Assembly (NCBI GenBank): GCA_019752975.1
Contig: JAIELM010000296.1
Location: forward strand, 1-16,149
From: Undibacterium sp.
GTDB lineage: Bacteria; Pseudomonadota; Gammaproteobacteria; Burkholderiales; Burkholderiaceae_D
DNA: 16,149 nucleotides
Direction of reading: 5' to 3'
The notes under the pieces are model-generated. The model was not told the DNA's origin. It worked only from the letters and a program-made list of their open reading frames with translations, and did not search any database. Shown in pieces: positions 1 through 6,325 of this stretch. Numbering within the stretch: position 1 is the stretch's first letter; each line of letters begins with the position of its first letter. A program made the position numbers and the translations under genes.

Positions 1-100
1 TTTGTGGTTGCAACTTACGAAACGAGTCAATGATGGCCGGCTTAATTAGCGCATTCATCATTGCCATATTGAGTAAAGAAAGCTCAGTTTTATGTGTCAT
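1..100 (-). CDS. kdpB: Potassium-transporting ATPase ATP-binding subunit KdpB, N-terminal fragment
   Basis: Only the first 33 codons are inside the window; the gene runs off the left edge. The visible peptide begins MTHKTELSLLNMAMMNALIK and continues with a PAIIDSFRKLQPQ stretch. This resembles the cytoplasmic N-terminus of KdpB, where a PALLDAFRKLDPR-like segment precedes the first membrane helix. KdpB is the P-type ATPase subunit that hydrolyses ATP to drive K+ uptake through KdpA at the inner membrane. The start codon lies one base beyond the kdpA stop, with a GGTG-like ribosome site inside the kdpA 3' end, so the two are probably translationally coupled. Identification rests on this short match and on its position after kdpA; none of the catalytic motifs (DKTGT and others) are in view. 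Confidence 0.9.
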   Translation of the reverse strand, partial: MTHKTELSLLNMAMMNALIKPAIIDSFRKLQPQ

Positions 101-101
101 G

Positions 102-1904
102 TTATTTCACCACACTTAAATGTTCAACAATCGGCCCCAAGGCGAGCGCCGGAATATAAGTTAAGGCACCAATAATTAATACCGTACCCAGTAACAGGCT
201 GGCAAATAAGATGCCATGGGTAGGTAAAGAACCTGAAGTGGTTGCCAAACGTTTTTTTGCCGCCATAGAACCCGCAATCGCCAAGACGGGAATAATGATC
301 CAGAAACGACCAAACCACATCCCGACTGCCAAAGCAATATTGAAAAAGGGCGTATTGGTAGAAACTCCCGCAAAGGCACTGCCATTGTTATTCGCAGCCG
401 AACTAAAGGCATATAGGATTTCCGAAAATCCGTGCGCCGCAGGATTTGAAATTCCCGCTTTACCAGCCGCGATAGAGACCGTGAGTGCAGTACCAGACAA
501 TACTAACAATGGACCGATCAAAATCGCAATCGAGACCATCTTCATATCGAAGGCTTCGATTTTTTTACCTAAATATTCAGGGGTGCGACCGATCATTAAT
601 CCAGCAATGAACACCGCCATCATCGCGAAGATCAACATCCCATACAGCCCTGATCCGACTCCACCAAATACCACTTCACCTAACTGCATTAAGATTAGGG
701 GTACTAAGCCACCTAAGGCAGTAAAAGAGTCGTGCATGGCATTGACTGCACCGCATGAAGCCGCCGTGGTAATTGTGGCGAACATTGCAGAGGCTGCGAT
801 ACCGAAACGTGTCTCTTTACCCTCCATATTGCCGCCAGCTTGCATCATAGTTGCAGCATGATCCAGAGCTAAATTTTGCGCCATAGGGTTGACTTGTTGT
901 TCCGCACTCATCGCGCAATAAGCAAAGACCACAAACAAAATCGTCATCACCGATAACATCACCCAACCCTGACGCGGATCGCCCACCATTCGACCGAATG
1001 TGATGCATAGTGCTGCAGGGATCAGGAAAATCGCAATCATCTGTAAGAAATTAGAAAGTGGCGTCGGATTTTCAAATGGATGAGCGGAATTGGCATTGAA
1101 AAATCCACCACCATTGGTTCCCAGCATCTTAATCGCTTCTTGTGAAGCAACCGGCCCCATAGGAATCACCTGTGTGCTCGTCACCTGTGCTTCATCAATC
1201 GACTTGCCCGCTGCGTCCAACACCGGCGCACTATTGATATCCAATTTGGGCGCACTGTAATGCTGCATTTGTATGGTAGTCACGGTTTTATAGGCATCGA
1301 AATTTTGAATGACACCTTGACTCATCAAAGCAAACGCAAGGACCAATGAGAGAGGTAATAAAACATATAAAGTAGCCCGTGTTGCATCCACCCAAAAATT
1401 ACCTATCGTAGTCGCCGTATGGCGTGCAAAACCACGAATCAAAGCGATCACCACCACCAAACCAGTTGCAGCAGAAAAGAAATTTTGTACGCTTAAACCC
1501 AACATTTGTGTCAAATAACTCAAGGAGGATTCACCGCTATAGGCCTGCCAATTGGTATTGGTGACGAAACTAATCGCCGTATTGAATGAAGAATCCGCAG
1601 ACAACTCAGAAAAACCTTGCGGATTCAAAGAAAACGAGGCTTGCCAACGCTGTAAAAAATAAAGCACCAACACTCCTAAGGCATTAAAAGCGATGAGGGC
1701 GTACGCATATCTTTTCCACGACATTTCGCTATGTGCATTAATGCCAGCGAGACGATAAAATCCTTTTTCTATGGGCTGAAAAATGCGAGAAAGAACGGTA
1801 ACTTCGCCCTGCATTACGCGAGAAATATAAATACCTAGTGGTAGCGCCAACAAAAATAAAATCAGCAAATAAAATGCGATTTGAAAAAAACTAGAATGAT
1901 TCAT
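102..1904 (-). CDS. kdpA: Potassium-transporting ATPase potassium-binding subunit KdpA
   Basis: This 600-residue polytopic inner-membrane protein is the K+-selective channel-like subunit of the KdpFABC pump. All four pore-loop regions are visible: SFVTNTNWQAYSGE near residues 112-125, GTNGGGFFNAN at 262-272 followed by SAHPFENPTPLSNF, AASCGAVNAMHDSFTALGG near 381-399, and SSAANNNGSAFAG at 501-513. About ten hydrophobic helices surround them. The length is normal or slightly long for the family (about 560-600). The ATG is preceded by a GGAGG ribosome site seven bases upstream, inside kdpF, and the kdpF stop overlaps this start as TAATG. KdpF precedes it and KdpB follows. Expression is expected to respond to K+ limitation through KdpD/KdpE, which are not in the window; a KdpE-like box lies at 2169-2188. 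No disruption is seen. Confidence 0.98.
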   Translation of the reverse strand: MNHSSFFQIAFYLLILFLLALPLGIYISRVMQGEVTVLSRIFQPIEKGFYRLAGINAHSEMSWKRYAYALIAFNALGVLVLYFLQRWQASFSLNPQGFSELSADSSFNTAISFVTNTNWQAYSGESSLSYLTQMLGLSVQNFFSAATGLVVVIALIRGFARHTATTIGNFWVDATRATLYVLLPLSLVLAFALMSQGVIQNFDAYKTVTTIQMQHYSAPKLDINSAPVLDAAGKSIDEAQVTSTQVIPMGPVASQEAIKMLGTNGGGFFNANSAHPFENPTPLSNFLQMIAIFLIPAALCITFGRMVGDPRQGWVMLSVMTILFVVFAYCAMSAEQQVNPMAQNLALDHAATMMQAGGNMEGKETRFGIAASAMFATITTAASCGAVNAMHDSFTALGGLVPLILMQLGEVVFGGVGSGLYGMLIFAMMAVFIAGLMIGRTPEYLGKKIEAFDMKMVSIAILIGPLLVLSGTALTVSIAAGKAGISNPAAHGFSEILYAFSSAANNNGSAFAGVSTNTPFFNIALAVGMWFGRFWIIIPVLAIAGSMAAKKRLATTSGSLPTHGILFASLLLGTVLIIGALTYIPALALGPIVEHLSVVK

Positions 1905-1993
1905 TAGAATGCCTCCGGTTTACATAGGGCATAAACTAAATAAATGAATATTAGTACGGCCATTACTGCGGCGATAATTAGGCTTGCGCTCAT
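1904..1993 (-). CDS. kdpF: KdpF small membrane subunit of the Kdp pump
   Basis: This is a 29-residue single-span peptide that starts MSASLIIAAVMAVLIFIYLV and ends YALCKPEAF. Length, hydrophobic helix and the C-terminal K/R-P-E/D-x-F pattern fit KdpF, which sits in the membrane against KdpA and stabilises the KdpFABC complex. An AGGAG ribosome site is seven bases before the ATG. Its ATGA start overlaps the stop of the 33-residue reading frame before it, and its TAATG end overlaps the kdpA start, so it lies in a tightly coupled operon. It is short enough to be missed by ordinary gene callers. Confidence 0.92.
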   Translation of the reverse strand: MSASLIIAAVMAVLIFIYLVYALCKPEAF

Positions 1994-2091
1994 TTAGCGT
2001 CTCCTAAAACTCGGCTTTGAGGAATGCCCCTAATTAAAGCGAGGGACAAACCTAGAAATGAAAGGAACAAAGTCAAATAAATAAAATCCAT
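1990..2091 (-). CDS. 33-residue membrane microprotein preceding kdpF
   Basis: A 33-codon frame encodes MDFIYLTLFLSFLGLSLALI followed by RGIPQSRVLGDAK: one hydrophobic helix with a short basic tail. A GGAG ribosome site six bases before this ATG favours it over the in-frame ATG at 2103 or the longer frame starting at 2199. Its TGA overlaps the kdpF ATG by four bases (ATGA), the usual sign of translational coupling. I recall small single-span reading frames of this style before kdpF in other proteobacterial kdp operons, but I know of no assigned function. It could be an extra accessory peptide of the Kdp complex or a leader that tunes kdpF translation. Membrane location is inferred from composition. 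Confidence 0.65.
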   Translation of the reverse strand: MDFIYLTLFLSFLGLSLALIRGIPQSRVLGDAK

Positions 2092-2168
2092 ACTATTCTC
2101 CATGCGGTAAGTGACTACGCTAGACGATAAACAAATACGGGTAAAGATGTTGTATAGCTTGGTATTGA

Positions 2169-2188
2169 GGGTGTAAAAAAGGTGTAAA
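2169..2188 (-). promoter_or_regulatory. Putative KdpE operator of the kdp operon
   Basis: Read on the minus strand this is TTTACACC-TTT-TTTACACC-C, two TTTACACC direct repeats at an 11-base period, as expected for a tandem OmpR-family dimer site. It lies 78-97 bases upstream of the first codon of the kdp operon. The E. coli KdpE site, as I recall it, contains TTTATACTTTTTTTACACCC, which differs at only two of 20 positions. Assignment to KdpE is therefore well motivated, although the reference site is quoted from memory. I could not place the -35 and -10 elements with confidence in the following A/T-rich stretch. Confidence 0.7.
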
Positions 2189-2413: not shown

Positions 2414-3196
2414 TTAAAAGGTCCGAGTGACAGTCAATATCAGACTAGACTTACCTAATTGTTGCGCCCGGACTGGCGAGGTGTAAAAAGCTTTTTTTGC
2501 GTTCGTCGATACGGCTGCTAAGGACACTTGCCACTCGTGGAGTTCTTTGAACGTCTTAGTGACACCGATTTTATAGTCTGCATAGCTCGCTAAATTCGCA
2601 TTGATACCGGTCACTTTTTGATAACCTGCATGCAAATTCAAATGAAAATCAGCCATGATTTCAAGATTGGAACTCAACTCCAAATAGCTACTAGACCGAC
2701 TAGCAACAATCCCAAACAACGGCGTCAAGGCGTGCGAATATTTCAGCGTGGTGGAACCGTAAGCTAGTTGTCCGTAGGCTTCCAAAGTATTGCCATTTTT
2801 CATCCCTGCTTTGTCAAGGTGATTATTTAAATACAGGTAGGCCAAGACACCAATGTCATAACTTATATCGACAGTCAAGCTTCCTTTTTTTCCCGCGGAC
2901 ACGTCCCATTCCAGCGGCGTACTGCCAGCGCTTGGAGTGTCTTTAATCCACGAAATAGTAGATAACCAAGTCCCTGAATATAAGCCAGAGATATCCTGAT
3001 TCAGATCAGCTCCGCCTTGGAGTGCTGGTTGTAAGCGTGTTTGGGAAATGCCACGATAGCGATAATCGCTGGTGAGACTGAGGTTGTAGCTACTGCTGAT
3101 GGCGTCCGATTTTACTTCTTGTGCCATTGCGGCTGGTGCAAAAACGGATAAAAATAGAGTACCTGTAAGAGCAAAAATAAGCTTAGTTTTTTTCAC
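2414..3196 (-). CDS. TorF-family putative outer-membrane porin
   Basis: The product is about 260 residues with a classic signal peptide (MKKTKLIFALTGTLFLSVFA, then PAAMA before QEV). The mature chain shows alternating hydrophobic strands and ends in TRTF, the C-terminal phenylalanine typical of beta-barrels inserted by BamA. The segment NLSLTSDYRYRGISQTRLQP is the family hallmark of the TIGR02001/TorF-like group, whose transported substrate is unknown. Start choice: the ATG at 3202 has its GGAG only one base away, whereas the in-frame GTG at 3196 has GGAG at seven bases and gives the typical MKK opening, so I prefer GTG; the ATG would add two residues. A KdpE-like box lies upstream (3259-3278), which suggests control together with the adjacent potassium pump. 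Family assignment is firm; function is inferred. Confidence 0.85.
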   Translation of the reverse strand: MKKTKLIFALTGTLFLSVFAPAAMAQEVKSDAISSSYNLSLTSDYRYRGISQTRLQPALQGGADLNQDISGLYSGTWLSTISWIKDTPSAGSTPLEWDVSAGKKGSLTVDISYDIGVLAYLYLNNHLDKAGMKNGNTLEAYGQLAYGSTTLKYSHALTPLFGIVASRSSSYLELSSNLEIMADFHLNLHAGYQKVTGINANLASYADYKIGVTKTFKELHEWQVSLAAVSTNAKKAFYTSPVRAQQLGKSSLILTVTRTF

Positions 3197-3258
3197 GACC
3201 ATTCTCCAAAATGCGCCTCACAAAAATAGCGAGGCCGCGTGCAAAAGGATAGAGAATC

Positions 3259-3278
3259 GGGTGTAAAAACTGGGTAAA
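3259..3278 (-). promoter_or_regulatory. KdpE-like operator upstream of the porin gene
   Basis: Read on the minus strand this is TTTACCCAGTTTTTACACCC. It matches the box before the kdp operon at 17 of 20 positions and keeps the two half-sites at the same 11-base period (TTTACCC and TTTACACC). It lies 63-82 bases upstream of the preferred porin start, a distance like that of the kdp copy. Both boxes have the same orientation relative to the gene they precede. I infer binding by the same OmpR-family regulator, most simply KdpE. Confidence 0.55.
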
Positions 3279-3328
3279 AAATTGAGGTGTTCGAGTATCA
3301 AAAGCGTAAATTTTTTTGGTCTCTTTAC

Positions 3329-4033
3329 CTATCTATAGCGGAATCCAAACATGCTCTGAATCTCGCCGAGACAAGACCAGGTAAGTTTATTAATTTCCTT
3401 TTCAGAGTCTAGTCGATTCTGTTCTATCTGGACTTTGGCAAACTCTGATTTGATGAGCGGGCGCCATAGTTCGTCGATTTCTCTATTTAAGTTATTTTTT
3501 GCTTCTCCGGTGGGAGCGTATATTGGCTTACCGCCAAAGCGCTTTTCCATCAGTTCACTTAATATGAATTTGATGGTGGGAAGGTTGACTTGATATAGTT
3601 TGACATGTTGCATTTCGTGCTCGAGTATGGTGTTGTAGGTACACCCGTCCTTTACGAATTCACTCCCGATAAATACTTCTATCGGTTCATAAATCAGTTT
3701 GATATTGATTTGTGCGGCAAAACATTCACCTTTGCTAGGAAGGTCTTGCCAGACGTTTCCATCAAAATCAATGACCGTCTTGGAGCGCAAGGAGGTCAGG
3801 CCGACCACAAAGTCGCCGGCTAAATTACTATTACTTTTACGGTTTAAGGTGTGACTGGTGTATTGATTGTTGACTGTGTAGCCCGCTTCATCGGTTTGGA
3901 TATTAACGACCGTTTTTTCGTTTTGTTTCTCACATCGATTGAGGGTGTTTTCCTTGTTCGGTGTCTGAGAAAATACGTTGGCACTCATAAGAAAACTGAT
4001 CGGCAGCAAGGCTGTGATTAATGTTTTTTTCAT
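3329..4033 (-). CDS. Secreted hypothetical protein with an HExxH metal-site motif
   Basis: I do not recognise a named family. The 234-residue product has a signal peptide (MKKTLITALLPISFLMSANV, then FSQ) and a mature part with cysteines near residues 34, 104, 131 and 221, which could pair in the periplasm. The stretch ILEHEMQHVKLYQ (HEMQH near residues 139-143) is the zinc-protease consensus HExxH, so a periplasmic metallopeptidase-like fold is possible; I cannot place a third zinc ligand securely. The C-terminal part is helical and charged. Start choice: a GAGGTG ribosome site stands six bases before the ATG at 4033, whereas an in-frame GTG at 4042 overlaps that site and is unlikely. A 7-base inverted repeat (4057-4074) lies just upstream. 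Neighbours give no functional clue. Confidence 0.7.
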   Translation of the reverse strand: MKKTLITALLPISFLMSANVFSQTPNKENTLNRCEKQNEKTVVNIQTDEAGYTVNNQYTSHTLNRKSNSNLAGDFVVGLTSLRSKTVIDFDGNVWQDLPSKGECFAAQINIKLIYEPIEVFIGSEFVKDGCTYNTILEHEMQHVKLYQVNLPTIKFILSELMEKRFGGKPIYAPTGEAKNNLNREIDELWRPLIKSEFAKVQIEQNRLDSEKEINKLTWSCLGEIQSMFGFRYR

Positions 4034-4056
4034 TATTTTCACCTCATAAGTAATAT

Positions 4057-4173: not shown

Positions 4174-4944
4174 CTACATCTGTTTAAATAAGTGAACAAA
4201 ACTACGGCTGACCTCTAACTTCTCTGTTAAGCCTTTAATTTGCACCAAATGCCGACCGCGCATATCGCGTACCACACCCGAAATTGCCTTGGAGTTGACT
4301 AGCGTAGAGCGATGGATTTGCCAAAATAAATGCGGGTCGAGTTCTTCGGCAAGGTCTCGTACTGGTTTTCTGATGAGTGCTTCGTAAGTGGCGGTTTGTA
4401 CTCGAGTATATTTTTCGTCAGATTGGAAAAAGAGAATATCTTCCACTGGAATTAAGCGTAATTCCTGACCGATAGAGGCTTGTATCCATTGCAGATAATT
4501 GGGTTTACTTGCAATCCCCAGTTGCTTGGCCAATTGTGCCAGCATATTACTCATATCATTTGGTTCGGTAGCGCTGTGGAGTCGTTCTTTTAGGCGTTCT
4601 ACTGTGCGGCTCAAACGTTCAACGTCAGCGGGTTTAAGAACATAATCAACCGCACCCTGATCAAATGCTTCAACAGCATATTGGTCATACGCCGTAATGA
4701 AAACAATGTGTGGAATTTTGCCCTCGCTGTTGCCGATGGCTCTTGCGGCTTCTAGTCCCGTTTTAGCAGGCATACGTATGTCTAAGAAAGCCAAATCAGG
4801 TTGATGTTCGGCGACCATCTGTATCGCTTCTTCTCCGTTTTTGGCTTCAGCAATTATGTTCAGTTCTGGCCAAACTTGTTCTAGGCGGGAGCGCAATTGA
4901 TCGCGCATTAGTCTTTCGTCGTCAGCAATAATGGCGGTGGGCAT
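4174..4944 (-). CDS. LytTR-family response regulator (LytR/AlgR type)
   Basis: The 256-residue protein has an N-terminal receiver domain (about 1-125) with acidic residues D8, D9, phospho-acceptor D55 in LAFLDIRMP, T84 in VFITAYD and K104 in YVLKPAD. A linker leads to a C-terminal LytTR DNA-binding domain (about 150-256), seen in LIPVEDILFFQSDEKYTRV, IRKPVRDL, LFWQIHRSTLVN and the closing LEVSRSFVHLFKQM. All key phosphorylation residues are present, so it should be an active transcription regulator that binds direct repeats. An AAGGA ribosome site precedes the ATG. It follows the LytS-type kinase gene by 61 bases on the same strand, and the two form a two-component system. The stimulus and targets are unknown; a candidate target is the 12-base repeat upstream of the kinase gene. 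Confidence 0.95.
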   Translation of the reverse strand: MPTAIIADDERLMRDQLRSRLEQVWPELNIIAEAKNGEEAIQMVAEHQPDLAFLDIRMPAKTGLEAARAIGNSEGKIPHIVFITAYDQYAVEAFDQGAVDYVLKPADVERLSRTVERLKERLHSATEPNDMSNMLAQLAKQLGIASKPNYLQWIQASIGQELRLIPVEDILFFQSDEKYTRVQTATYEALIRKPVRDLAEELDPHLFWQIHRSTLVNSKAISGVVRDMRGRHLVQIKGLTEKLEVSRSFVHLFKQM

Positions 4945-4992
4945 GTGAATTTTCCTTTATATTATTTAGCGTTTTTGTGGCGCTCTTTTTGC

Positions 4993-5014
4993 ACTTATTT
5001 TGCACTTATTTTGC
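4993..5014. repeat. 11-base tandem duplication across the kinase stop codon
   Basis: The 11-mer ACTTATTTTGC occurs twice back to back, with a partial third unit (TTTTTGC) just to the left. On the minus strand the repeat is GCAAAATAAGT, so the TAA stop of the histidine kinase lies inside it and is duplicated downstream in another frame. It looks like a replication-slippage duplication in the gap between kinase and regulator genes. No function is evident. Confidence 0.6.
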
Positions 5015-6325
5015 AATTTCGTAAGGTATCTCTATCATAACGCAGACACCGCTTGGTTGGTTCGCGGTTATGATCATTTGCCCACTATTTTTGTAGATGA
5101 GTTTGAGTCTTTCTCGTATGTTTTGTAAGCCTAGGCCGGTACCGTTGCTCTTAACTGCACCAAATCCTAAACCGTCGTCTTTGACACTCACGCGTAATTT
5201 ATCCTCGAAAAGTTCAGCTCTAAATTGCAAGGTGCCACCTTCCGCCTTCACTTCCAAGCCGTGCTTAATTGAATTTTCAACTAAGGATTGCAGCATCATT
5301 GGTGGGAAACTGGCATTGCGTAAACCCTCAGGCATAATGAAGTCTATGTTGAGTCTTTCTTCCATGCGCATCTTGAGCAATTCAAGATAGGATTTCACCA
5401 TATCTGCTTCGCGCCCCAAATTAGTTCTGGGTGCATTTTCTCGAATTTGTGGTAATACCGCGCGCAAGTAGGTGATCAAACTTCTTTGCATTGCTGCTGC
5501 CCGTGGCGGATTTGTTTCGATCAGGTATTCTACAGAGGCTAAGGTATTGAATAAAAAATGCGGTTCTACTTGCGCTTGCATCATTTGCATTTGCGCTTCT
5601 GAGACTTGTCTTAAGAGTGCTTCACGTTCGGCTGCGGCACTAGCGACTCTGGCTTTTTCATCCGCTCTTACTTTGCCTCCCATCAGCGCTTTCATTCCAA
5701 ATAATCCAAAGATTAACAGGAGAACAAAGTTTTGGAACCAACGTGAGGATTCTATTCTCTCATCATCATAGGCATCGACAGCCGCATCGGTGGCCGCTTT
5801 TTTCATTTCTGCTTTAAGTTCTTTGGCCCATTTTTTGGGTAAGTTGATGCGAACTTCGTTTTCACCATAGGTGACCACTGCCGCGGGATTGGGTTTGCTG
5901 GTGGTGTCCTTTGAGATTCCCGCATCGGTAGGCGAGGGGTTATCATTGACTTCCTTTAGGCCATCGGCATTGATTTCTATATGGGTGTTGTTATGGGACT
6001 TGGGTGTGTCAGGTTCTTCTGGTGTTTTAATGCTTATCCCAGTGTCGTCTATCTCAATTTTTGGATCTTTATTCTTAGCACTAGCGGCTTGTTTTTGTTG
6101 TTTAGCACTGACTACTTGACGCGTTTTTTGTGTGTTGAAGTTGTCCGAAGATGAGAAGGTCTTTTGTAAAATATCTGCCGAAACCATTAGTAGGACAGCA
6201 AATAGAAAAAATTTCCACCACGATAATTTACTGACCCAAGTGGCTGTGCGGTCAAAGGCAATATTGAGCGCATTAAAAATTTTGCGCGCGTTGATTTGCA
6301 TCATTTCTAGGGTTTTCGGATCCAT
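5006..6325 (-). CDS. LytS-type sensor histidine kinase
   Basis: The 439-residue protein has two membrane segments, about 36-52 (WWKFFLFAVLLMVSADI) and 197-215 (FQNFVLLLIFGLFG). They enclose about 145 charged, low-complexity residues expected in the periplasm. A short coiled linker (about 218-250, rich in Ala, Glu and Gln) leads to the His_kinase domain with H256 in QVEPHFLFNTL. A GHKL ATPase domain follows, with the N box LVENSIKHG (N351), DDGLGFG near 383-389 and GTGLGL near 395-400. All catalytic boxes are intact. It should phosphorylate the LytTR regulator encoded 61 bases downstream. The sensor region has three short strand-like segments (IEIDDTGISI, IEINADGLKE, VRINLP) but no domain I recognise. 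The ribosome site before the ATG is weak (GAGAAC), so a start at M8 or M9 is possible. Confidence 0.92.
   Translation of the reverse strand: MDPKTLEMMQINARKIFNALNIAFDRTATWVSKLSWWKFFLFAVLLMVSADILQKTFSSSDNFNTQKTRQVVSAKQQKQAASAKNKDPKIEIDDTGISIKTPEEPDTPKSHNNTHIEINADGLKEVNDNPSPTDAGISKDTTSKPNPAAVVTYGENEVRINLPKKWAKELKAEMKKAATDAAVDAYDDERIESSRWFQNFVLLLIFGLFGMKALMGGKVRADEKARVASAAAEREALLRQVSEAQMQMMQAQVEPHFLFNTLASVEYLIETNPPRAAAMQRSLITYLRAVLPQIRENAPRTNLGREADMVKSYLELLKMRMEERLNIDFIMPEGLRNASFPPMMLQSLVENSIKHGLEVKAEGGTLQFRAELFEDKLRVSVKDDGLGFGAVKSNGTGLGLQNIRERLKLIYKNSGQMIITANQPSGVCVMIEIPYEIAK

Follow-up and report, generated by a model that had tools for sequence, protein, structure and literature searches.

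The window considered here, a stretch of 16,149 nucleotides from Undibacterium sp., is one complete contig (JAIELM010000296.1; G000:C9) of a 3.25-Mb assembly (GCA_019752975.1; 575 contigs, 73% complete), and its minus strand carries, in this order, the start of kdpB, kdpA, a kdpF-like open reading frame (ORF), an ORF of 33 amino acids (aa) and the gene for a TorF family putative porin. Sites of the type bound by KdpE, the regulator of the Kdp potassium pump, stand both before the kdp genes and before the porin gene, and the sequence comparisons described below make it very probable that the porin is a member of the KdpDE regulon of potassium limitation, and probable that its expression is turned on under potassium shortage. 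The 5' end of kdpB (1..100), truncated by the contig edge, is assigned from position and sequence only, and it is adjoined by kdpA (102..1904; TIGR00680, 762.6 bits). The translated ORF of 29 aa at 1904..1993, the stop of which overlaps the kdpA start, is presumably kdpF, a name given from its position, while a second translated ORF, small and hydrophobic (33 aa, 1990..2091), lies between it and the kdp boxes. The porin gene occupies 2414..3202, and all of these genes, as well as the four boxes described below, are on the minus strand.

The two main boxes are TTTACACCTTTTTTACACCC in the kdp promoter (2169..2188) and TTTACCCAGTTTTTACACCC before the porin gene (3259..3278, 56 base pairs (bp) from the start codon), each located upstream of, and directed at, minus-strand genes (kdpF/kdpA and the porin, respectively). 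They are identical at 17 of 20 positions and share a half-site period of 11 bp, and the match, period and orientation relative to the gene that had been reported in the initial annotation were all reproduced on recomputation. The E. coli KdpE site upstream of kdp is described, in the available parts of the source, as direct-repeat half-sites TTTATA and TTTACA with an 11-bp period, and paired base changes in TTTA abolish binding of the DNA-binding domain of E. coli KdpE (PMC3264566). The porin box, with the layout TTTACC-CAGTT-TTTACA, agrees with this definition in having two TTTA-headed half-sites at an 11-bp period, with TTTA intact in both.

Such matches are rare in the assembly. Besides the two main boxes, no further site with at most three mismatches was found in the window, and none of 200 dinucleotide shuffles of the window contained two matches. 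The assembly was searched with a pattern merged from both boxes, allowing at most three mismatches, which returned the porin and kdp boxes at zero mismatches (by construction) and just two matches elsewhere, each with three mismatches; the reversed pattern, used as the control in the same assembly, gave seven. The genome scan proposed earlier, performed here as a pattern search of a 73%-complete assembly, thus yielded few hits, and the view that two such matches are hard to explain by chance is borne out. A scoring matrix was also built from 24 kdp boxes of the genus; it started from a window-type consensus box and was trained solely on kdp promoters, with the window's own genome and all porin sites excluded from training. 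With this matrix the kdp box ranks first in the window (29.5 bits) and the porin box second (19.2 bits), a score reached by only one of 300 shuffled versions of the region upstream of the porin. The same ranking (28.9 and 23.0 bits) resulted when the matrix was derived from 14 non-genus kdp boxes, namely those scoring above 17 with the genus matrix, one of which (G317) is nearly identical to the window porin box. Judged from these comparisons, a chance resemblance of the porin box to the kdp box is unlikely.

The initial annotation had overlooked that a weaker partner accompanies each main box at a distance of exactly 32 bp, as revealed by the matrix from other genomes' kdp boxes. On the kdp side the partner TATACAACATCTTTACCCGT (2137..2156; 10.0 bits) lies 32 bp gene-ward of the main box and has TATA as its first half-site; on the porin side TTTACGCTTTTGATACTCGA (3291..3310) lies 32 bp further upstream, the main box being the start-codon-proximal member of the pair. 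One half-site is poor in each of these partners. Pairing was counted among relatives for promoters with a main box of at least 10 bits, a partner being a site of at least 5 bits. In their kdp promoters a partner is present at +32 in 63 of 79 cases, against a mean of 0.52 over all 122 offsets (+32 included), and in the promoters of their stand-alone porins a 32-bp partner is present in 16 of 23 (nine at +32 and seven at -32; mean over offsets 0.14). Because the exact 32-bp spacing is the rule in relatives, the porin region repeats the architecture of a kdp promoter rather than one motif alone.

A KdpE-like regulator is encoded in the same genome. The KdpE-like protein at G000:C175:484-1146 has 76% identity to a relative's KdpE, and its top match in the Protein Data Bank (PDB) is KdpE (4kny); the adjoining KdpD-like kinase (C175:1182-3899) has 72% identity to a relative's KdpD. 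Residues R193, R200 and T215 of E. coli KdpE are reported as important for DNA binding in the accessible portion of one study (PMC3264566), and their equivalents are conserved in the aligned protein of the window's genome provided that the chain numbering is shifted by 2, a shift that fits all three. The label KdpE-like was chosen because of the best match and the kdpD neighbour, not because of a family cut-off.

The distribution of sites among TorF porins offers a comparative test of whether such boxes accompany the need for a separate promoter. Porins were classified as stand-alone linked when located before kdpF or on the other strand, as in-operon when located after kdpC or kdpE, and as unlinked when on another contig or more than 30 kb off, a class in which contig breaks may hide links. 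In the first set of genomes, 10 of 11 stand-alone kdp-linked porins have a site of at least 10 bits, none of the 24 in-operon porins exceeds 2.0 bits, and one of 63 unlinked TorF porins reaches 10 bits (65 of the unlinked matches were fetched, two of which had too little upstream DNA). Fisher tests give 6e-8 for stand-alone versus in-operon porins and 1.7e-10 for stand-alone versus unlinked ones, values that treat kin genomes as independent and are therefore overstated. The exceptional unlinked porin (L137, genome G195) has a site of 15.5 bits that is matched by 0 of 200 shuffles and is without a 32-bp partner.

A second set comprised named genomes, mostly Oxalobacteraceae, in which 12 of 80 named loci repeated genomes of the first set and were removed, as they also were from the pairing counts above and the site-cluster counts below. 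Among 25 stand-alone porins of this set, 13 have a site of at least 10 bits within 350 bp, and 18 have a site of at least 13 bits within 1.3 kb; in seven of the other 12 such a site lies within 1.3 kb, ahead of an X1 or parA-like gene that is itself located upstream of the porin in the same orientation, and in one (L225) the upstream region is cut by the contig. No site of at least 10 bits was found before the 19 in-operon or the 24 unlinked porins, and the Fisher tests (1.2e-4 and 2.9e-5) again treat related genomes as independent. Across both sets, judging from sequence, porins needing their own promoter mostly have a site, whereas those that can be read from the kdp promoter do not. The contrast between in-operon and stand-alone porins is a test beyond those of the initial annotation and one that its proposal passed; loss of the box before orthologous porins, which had been named there as a refutation, is not the pattern observed, as most stand-alone orthologous porins keep a box.

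The sites are also specific to particular genes. Sites of at least 13 bits form 127 clusters in the 96 loci that carry kdp (1.83 Mb searched on both strands, with the training promoters, 24 in number, counted in), with 80 before kdp, 17 before a porin, 26 before an X1/dapA-like/parA-like cluster (19 X1, five dapA-like and two parA-like) and four elsewhere, while 27 unlinked loci contain a single site of at least 13 bits in 872,830 positions. Sites of 16-19 bits outside these gene classes were noted at L106:6366 (minus strand), L114:9820 (plus strand) and L210:13243 (plus strand). A site of 21 bits (L094:15311-15330, plus strand) lies after kdpE and before a gene for a PtsN-like EIIA protein, which matches PF00359 and scores under the cut-off of TIGR01419; PtsN acts on KdpD in E. 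coli.

The X1 cluster, which encodes a small protein of about 105-147 aa (X1), a DapA-like protein and a ParA-like protein, lies close to kdp and the porin and is preceded by KdpE-type sites, for example at L208:11996-14122 (minus strand) and further at L079, L083, L170, L171, L174, L176-L180, L182, L185, L189-L191, L196, L197, L199, L213, L222, L225 and L227. None of three X1 proteins tested matches a Pfam family over the cut-off. A 32-bp partner scoring about 5 bits or higher accompanies 13 of the 16 X1-cluster sites tested, and in Oxalobacteraceae such clusters are likely to be additional targets of KdpE. X1 was not found in the genome of the window, where parA-like appears only as a weak, stop-broken match, absences that prove nothing in a 73%-complete assembly.

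Linkage of TorF porins to kdp recurs at every taxonomic range considered, in agreement with the synteny that had been proposed as a check on the shared control. Among the 25 genomes of the genus (36 in all) with a substantial kdpA, 22 carry a TorF porin no more than 10 kb from that gene; one genome (G022) is cut by contig ends and a kdpA fragment in another (G018) was not counted. Elsewhere in the order, 86 of 97 kdp-positive genomes were examined (11 were left out), with TorF in 43 and within 10 kb of kdpA in 13; outside the order, 80 of 92 were searched (leaving out ten of family f58, G549 and G415), with TorF in 46 and within 10 kb in 10. By inference, the linkage expected by chance within 10 kb in a 4-Mb genome would be about half a percent per porin. 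The arrangements include porin-kdpFABC, kdpABC-porin-kdpDE, kdpFABCDE-porin and kdpAB-porin-kdpCDE, and in porin-headed operons outside the order (G545 and G472) a TTTA-7-TTTA site precedes the porin. At L258 and L260 (G603 and G505) the porin gene lies between kdpB and kdpC. Rearranged kdp orders were observed as kdpA-C-B (G126 and G163) and kdpB-A-C (G521) at loci L105, L107 and L264, and L071 and L072 (G006) are two overlapping kdp copies in an assembly with 9% contamination, possibly from two organisms.

A quick tree of 99 porins requires at least 12 changes between the linked and unlinked states, seven of them forced by supported branches; G046 and several others sit on long branches, and the length filter removed G031's linked porin. 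Because of these changes, the association must have been gained or lost several times, and vertical inheritance of one synteny block is ruled out as the whole story.

The porin itself is assigned to the TorF family. It exceeds both curated cut-offs (TIGR02001 and PF09694), with a TIGR02001 score of 161.5 bits against a cut-off of 47.15 over profile positions 2-244 of 244, and its closest named relatives are from Undibacterium. An N-terminal segment resembles a signal peptide when judged by eye, and the AlphaFold2 model (mean pLDDT 88.2) predicts 12 strands in agreement with an outer-membrane beta-barrel. The inward-facing residues are predicted to carry a net negative charge, giving an acidic lumen, and passage of K+ through such a pore is plausible on this model.

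Taken together, we consider it quite probable (roughly 0.8) that the porin is regulated by KdpE through tandem sites and its own promoter; it may in turn raise outer-membrane permeability, most likely for K+ and other cations. Under K+ scarcity or a drop in turgor, KdpD would phosphorylate KdpE, which would then bind the tandem direct-repeat sites (TTTAcNc-N4-TTTACACC), 32 bp apart and in helical phase, upstream of both the porin and kdpFABC. KdpE would activate the promoter of the porin's separate transcription unit, so that pump and pore would rise together; the 12-stranded porin would raise the permeability of the outer membrane, most likely for K+ and other cations, and the high-affinity pump would not be starved at that membrane. 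We infer the binding of KdpE, the activation and the passage of cations with K+ conduction. The sequences themselves show the paired sites, which are kept before most stand-alone linked porins and missing before those in-operon porins that were examined, as well as the repeated linkage to kdp and the KdpE-like regulator with its conserved DNA-contact residues. The shared control of porin and K+ pump suggested in the initial annotation is supported by the small number of genome hits and by the box before most stand-alone orthologues. Its further suggestion of an outer-membrane route for K+ does not gain support from these results.

Several observations weigh against this explanation. The KdpE-like regulator scores 301.5 bits and falls short of the 325-bit cut-off of the KdpE equivalog NF007820, which is still its best family by about 107 bits. 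The porin-distal partner box in the window is weak (8.7 bits), its second half-site being without TTTA, and promoter-like (sigma-70) hits after the box number 2, versus 2.4 in shuffles. The eleventh stand-alone porin of the first set (G005) has a weak site (7.7 bits, reached by 6 of 300 shuffles), and in the second set L167, L183 and L209 are without a good site within 1.3 kb and L206 has one of only 11.3 bits. Two kdp-positive genomes of the genus (G015 and G035) are without a linked porin. Outside the genus, a kdp box of at least 15 bits was found in 16 of 26 kdp loci, and its lack in the remaining 10 means that the absence of a site there says little. Finally, kdp-linked and unlinked TorF porins alike have a predicted acidic lumen, and no difference in lumen charge, which had been expected, was found.

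Among the alternatives, it is possible, though on balance we doubt it, that the porin is regulated by KdpE for general envelope or osmotic adjustment, or for another solute, and not for K+ entry. The repeated location of the porin inside or beside the kdp operon, in several arrangements and porin lineages, suggests instead a function near the pump, and the predicted acidic lumen is probably unlike what an anion porin would need. Binding of both boxes by another regulator of the OmpR/PhoB family is very unlikely: many response regulators are present in the genome and direct repeats are recognised by this family, according to the portion of the source available, but in that same portion the E. 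coli KdpE site (TTTATA, 5 bp, TTTACA) agrees with the half-sites and spacing found here (PMC3264566), and the boxes track kdp loci, as the near absence of sites from unlinked loci indicates. It is likewise very improbable that the porin-side pair plays no part in driving the porin, being either an upstream kdp promoter element or the relic of a duplicated kdp promoter. The two pairs do lie close together (within 1.2 kb, same strand), and their main boxes are alike except at 3 of 20 positions, but sites also occur before linked porins located elsewhere than upstream of kdp, on the opposite strand in G200 (26.8 bits) and in convergent orientation at L169 (13.7 bits), and none was found before the in-operon porins examined. 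A chance T-rich match can practically be dismissed: A/T-rich sites do arise by chance, as the two other three-mismatch matches and the seven of the reversed pattern illustrate, but shuffles of the porin's upstream region almost never reach its score, sites recur before most orthologous stand-alone porins, and the window porin box has its partner at the kdp-type spacing.

Further genes were noted upstream of the porin on the minus strand. A 237-aa protein (3329-4042), secreted-looking by eye, matches no Pfam or NCBIfam family at E <= 0.001. The adjoining genes (4174-6325) encode a LytTR-type response regulator, the top NCBIfam match of which is BtsR (147.9 bits, under the cut-off of 246), and a His_kinase-type sensor.

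The KdpE-regulated porin proposed here resembles the KdpDE-kdpFABC regulon of E. coli in its KdpE-like regulator and in the TTTA half-sites with an 11-bp period before kdp. It differs in that the sites are paired 32 bp apart and are also found before a TorF porin; as far as the accessible parts of the sources go, one 23-bp binding element is reported for E. coli KdpE (PMC3264566), and its reported direct targets are kdp, adeP, uxaA and uxaC, with no porin among them (PMC7657598). Among 14 control genomes, TorF was matched only in Caulobacter vibrioides, and kdpA was matched in E. coli. The TorF family (TIGR02001 / PF09694 Gcw_chp) is labelled in the libraries as "putative porin" or "unknown function", without a substrate, and unlike the family at large, the subset described here is linked with kdp through its location and through KdpE-type sites. 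The 12-stranded porins KdgM and NanC pass acidic sugars, whereas the predicted lumen of the window porin is net negative, and a profile search of PDB sequences returned no porin at E <= 1, so far as sequence goes, the likeness being seen in fold only. Full-text literature searches, with subscription journals mostly outside their scope, returned no link between a TorF porin and kdp, and none is present in the available portions of PMC7657598, PMC3264566, PMC12117332, PMC13303613 and PMC5382811. Both the regulon and the porin family are known, and it is their combination that appears undescribed.

Under K+ scarcity, entry of the ion through the outer membrane is commonly regarded as passive and unregulated. 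The KdpE regulon of E. coli, for its part, is reported in the accessible sections of one study to reach hardly beyond the pump itself (PMC7657598). Both passive K+ entry and a narrow KdpE regulon can be tested directly with a porin family that has no assigned substrate and shows recurrent ties to kdp, in position and in paired KdpE-type sites. A broader proposal, which we offer tentatively and at slightly less than even odds, is that, across Pseudomonadota, recruitment has repeatedly made TorF-like porins the outer-membrane component of Kdp, a KdpE-induced, cation-preferring channel supplying the high-affinity K+ pump, and that the regulon in Oxalobacteraceae extends to the X1/DapA-like/ParA-like cluster with its sites of the same kind, most of them paired at 32 bp. 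The finding suggests a signal for a large unnamed porin family and, outside E. coli, a KdpE regulon of wider reach.
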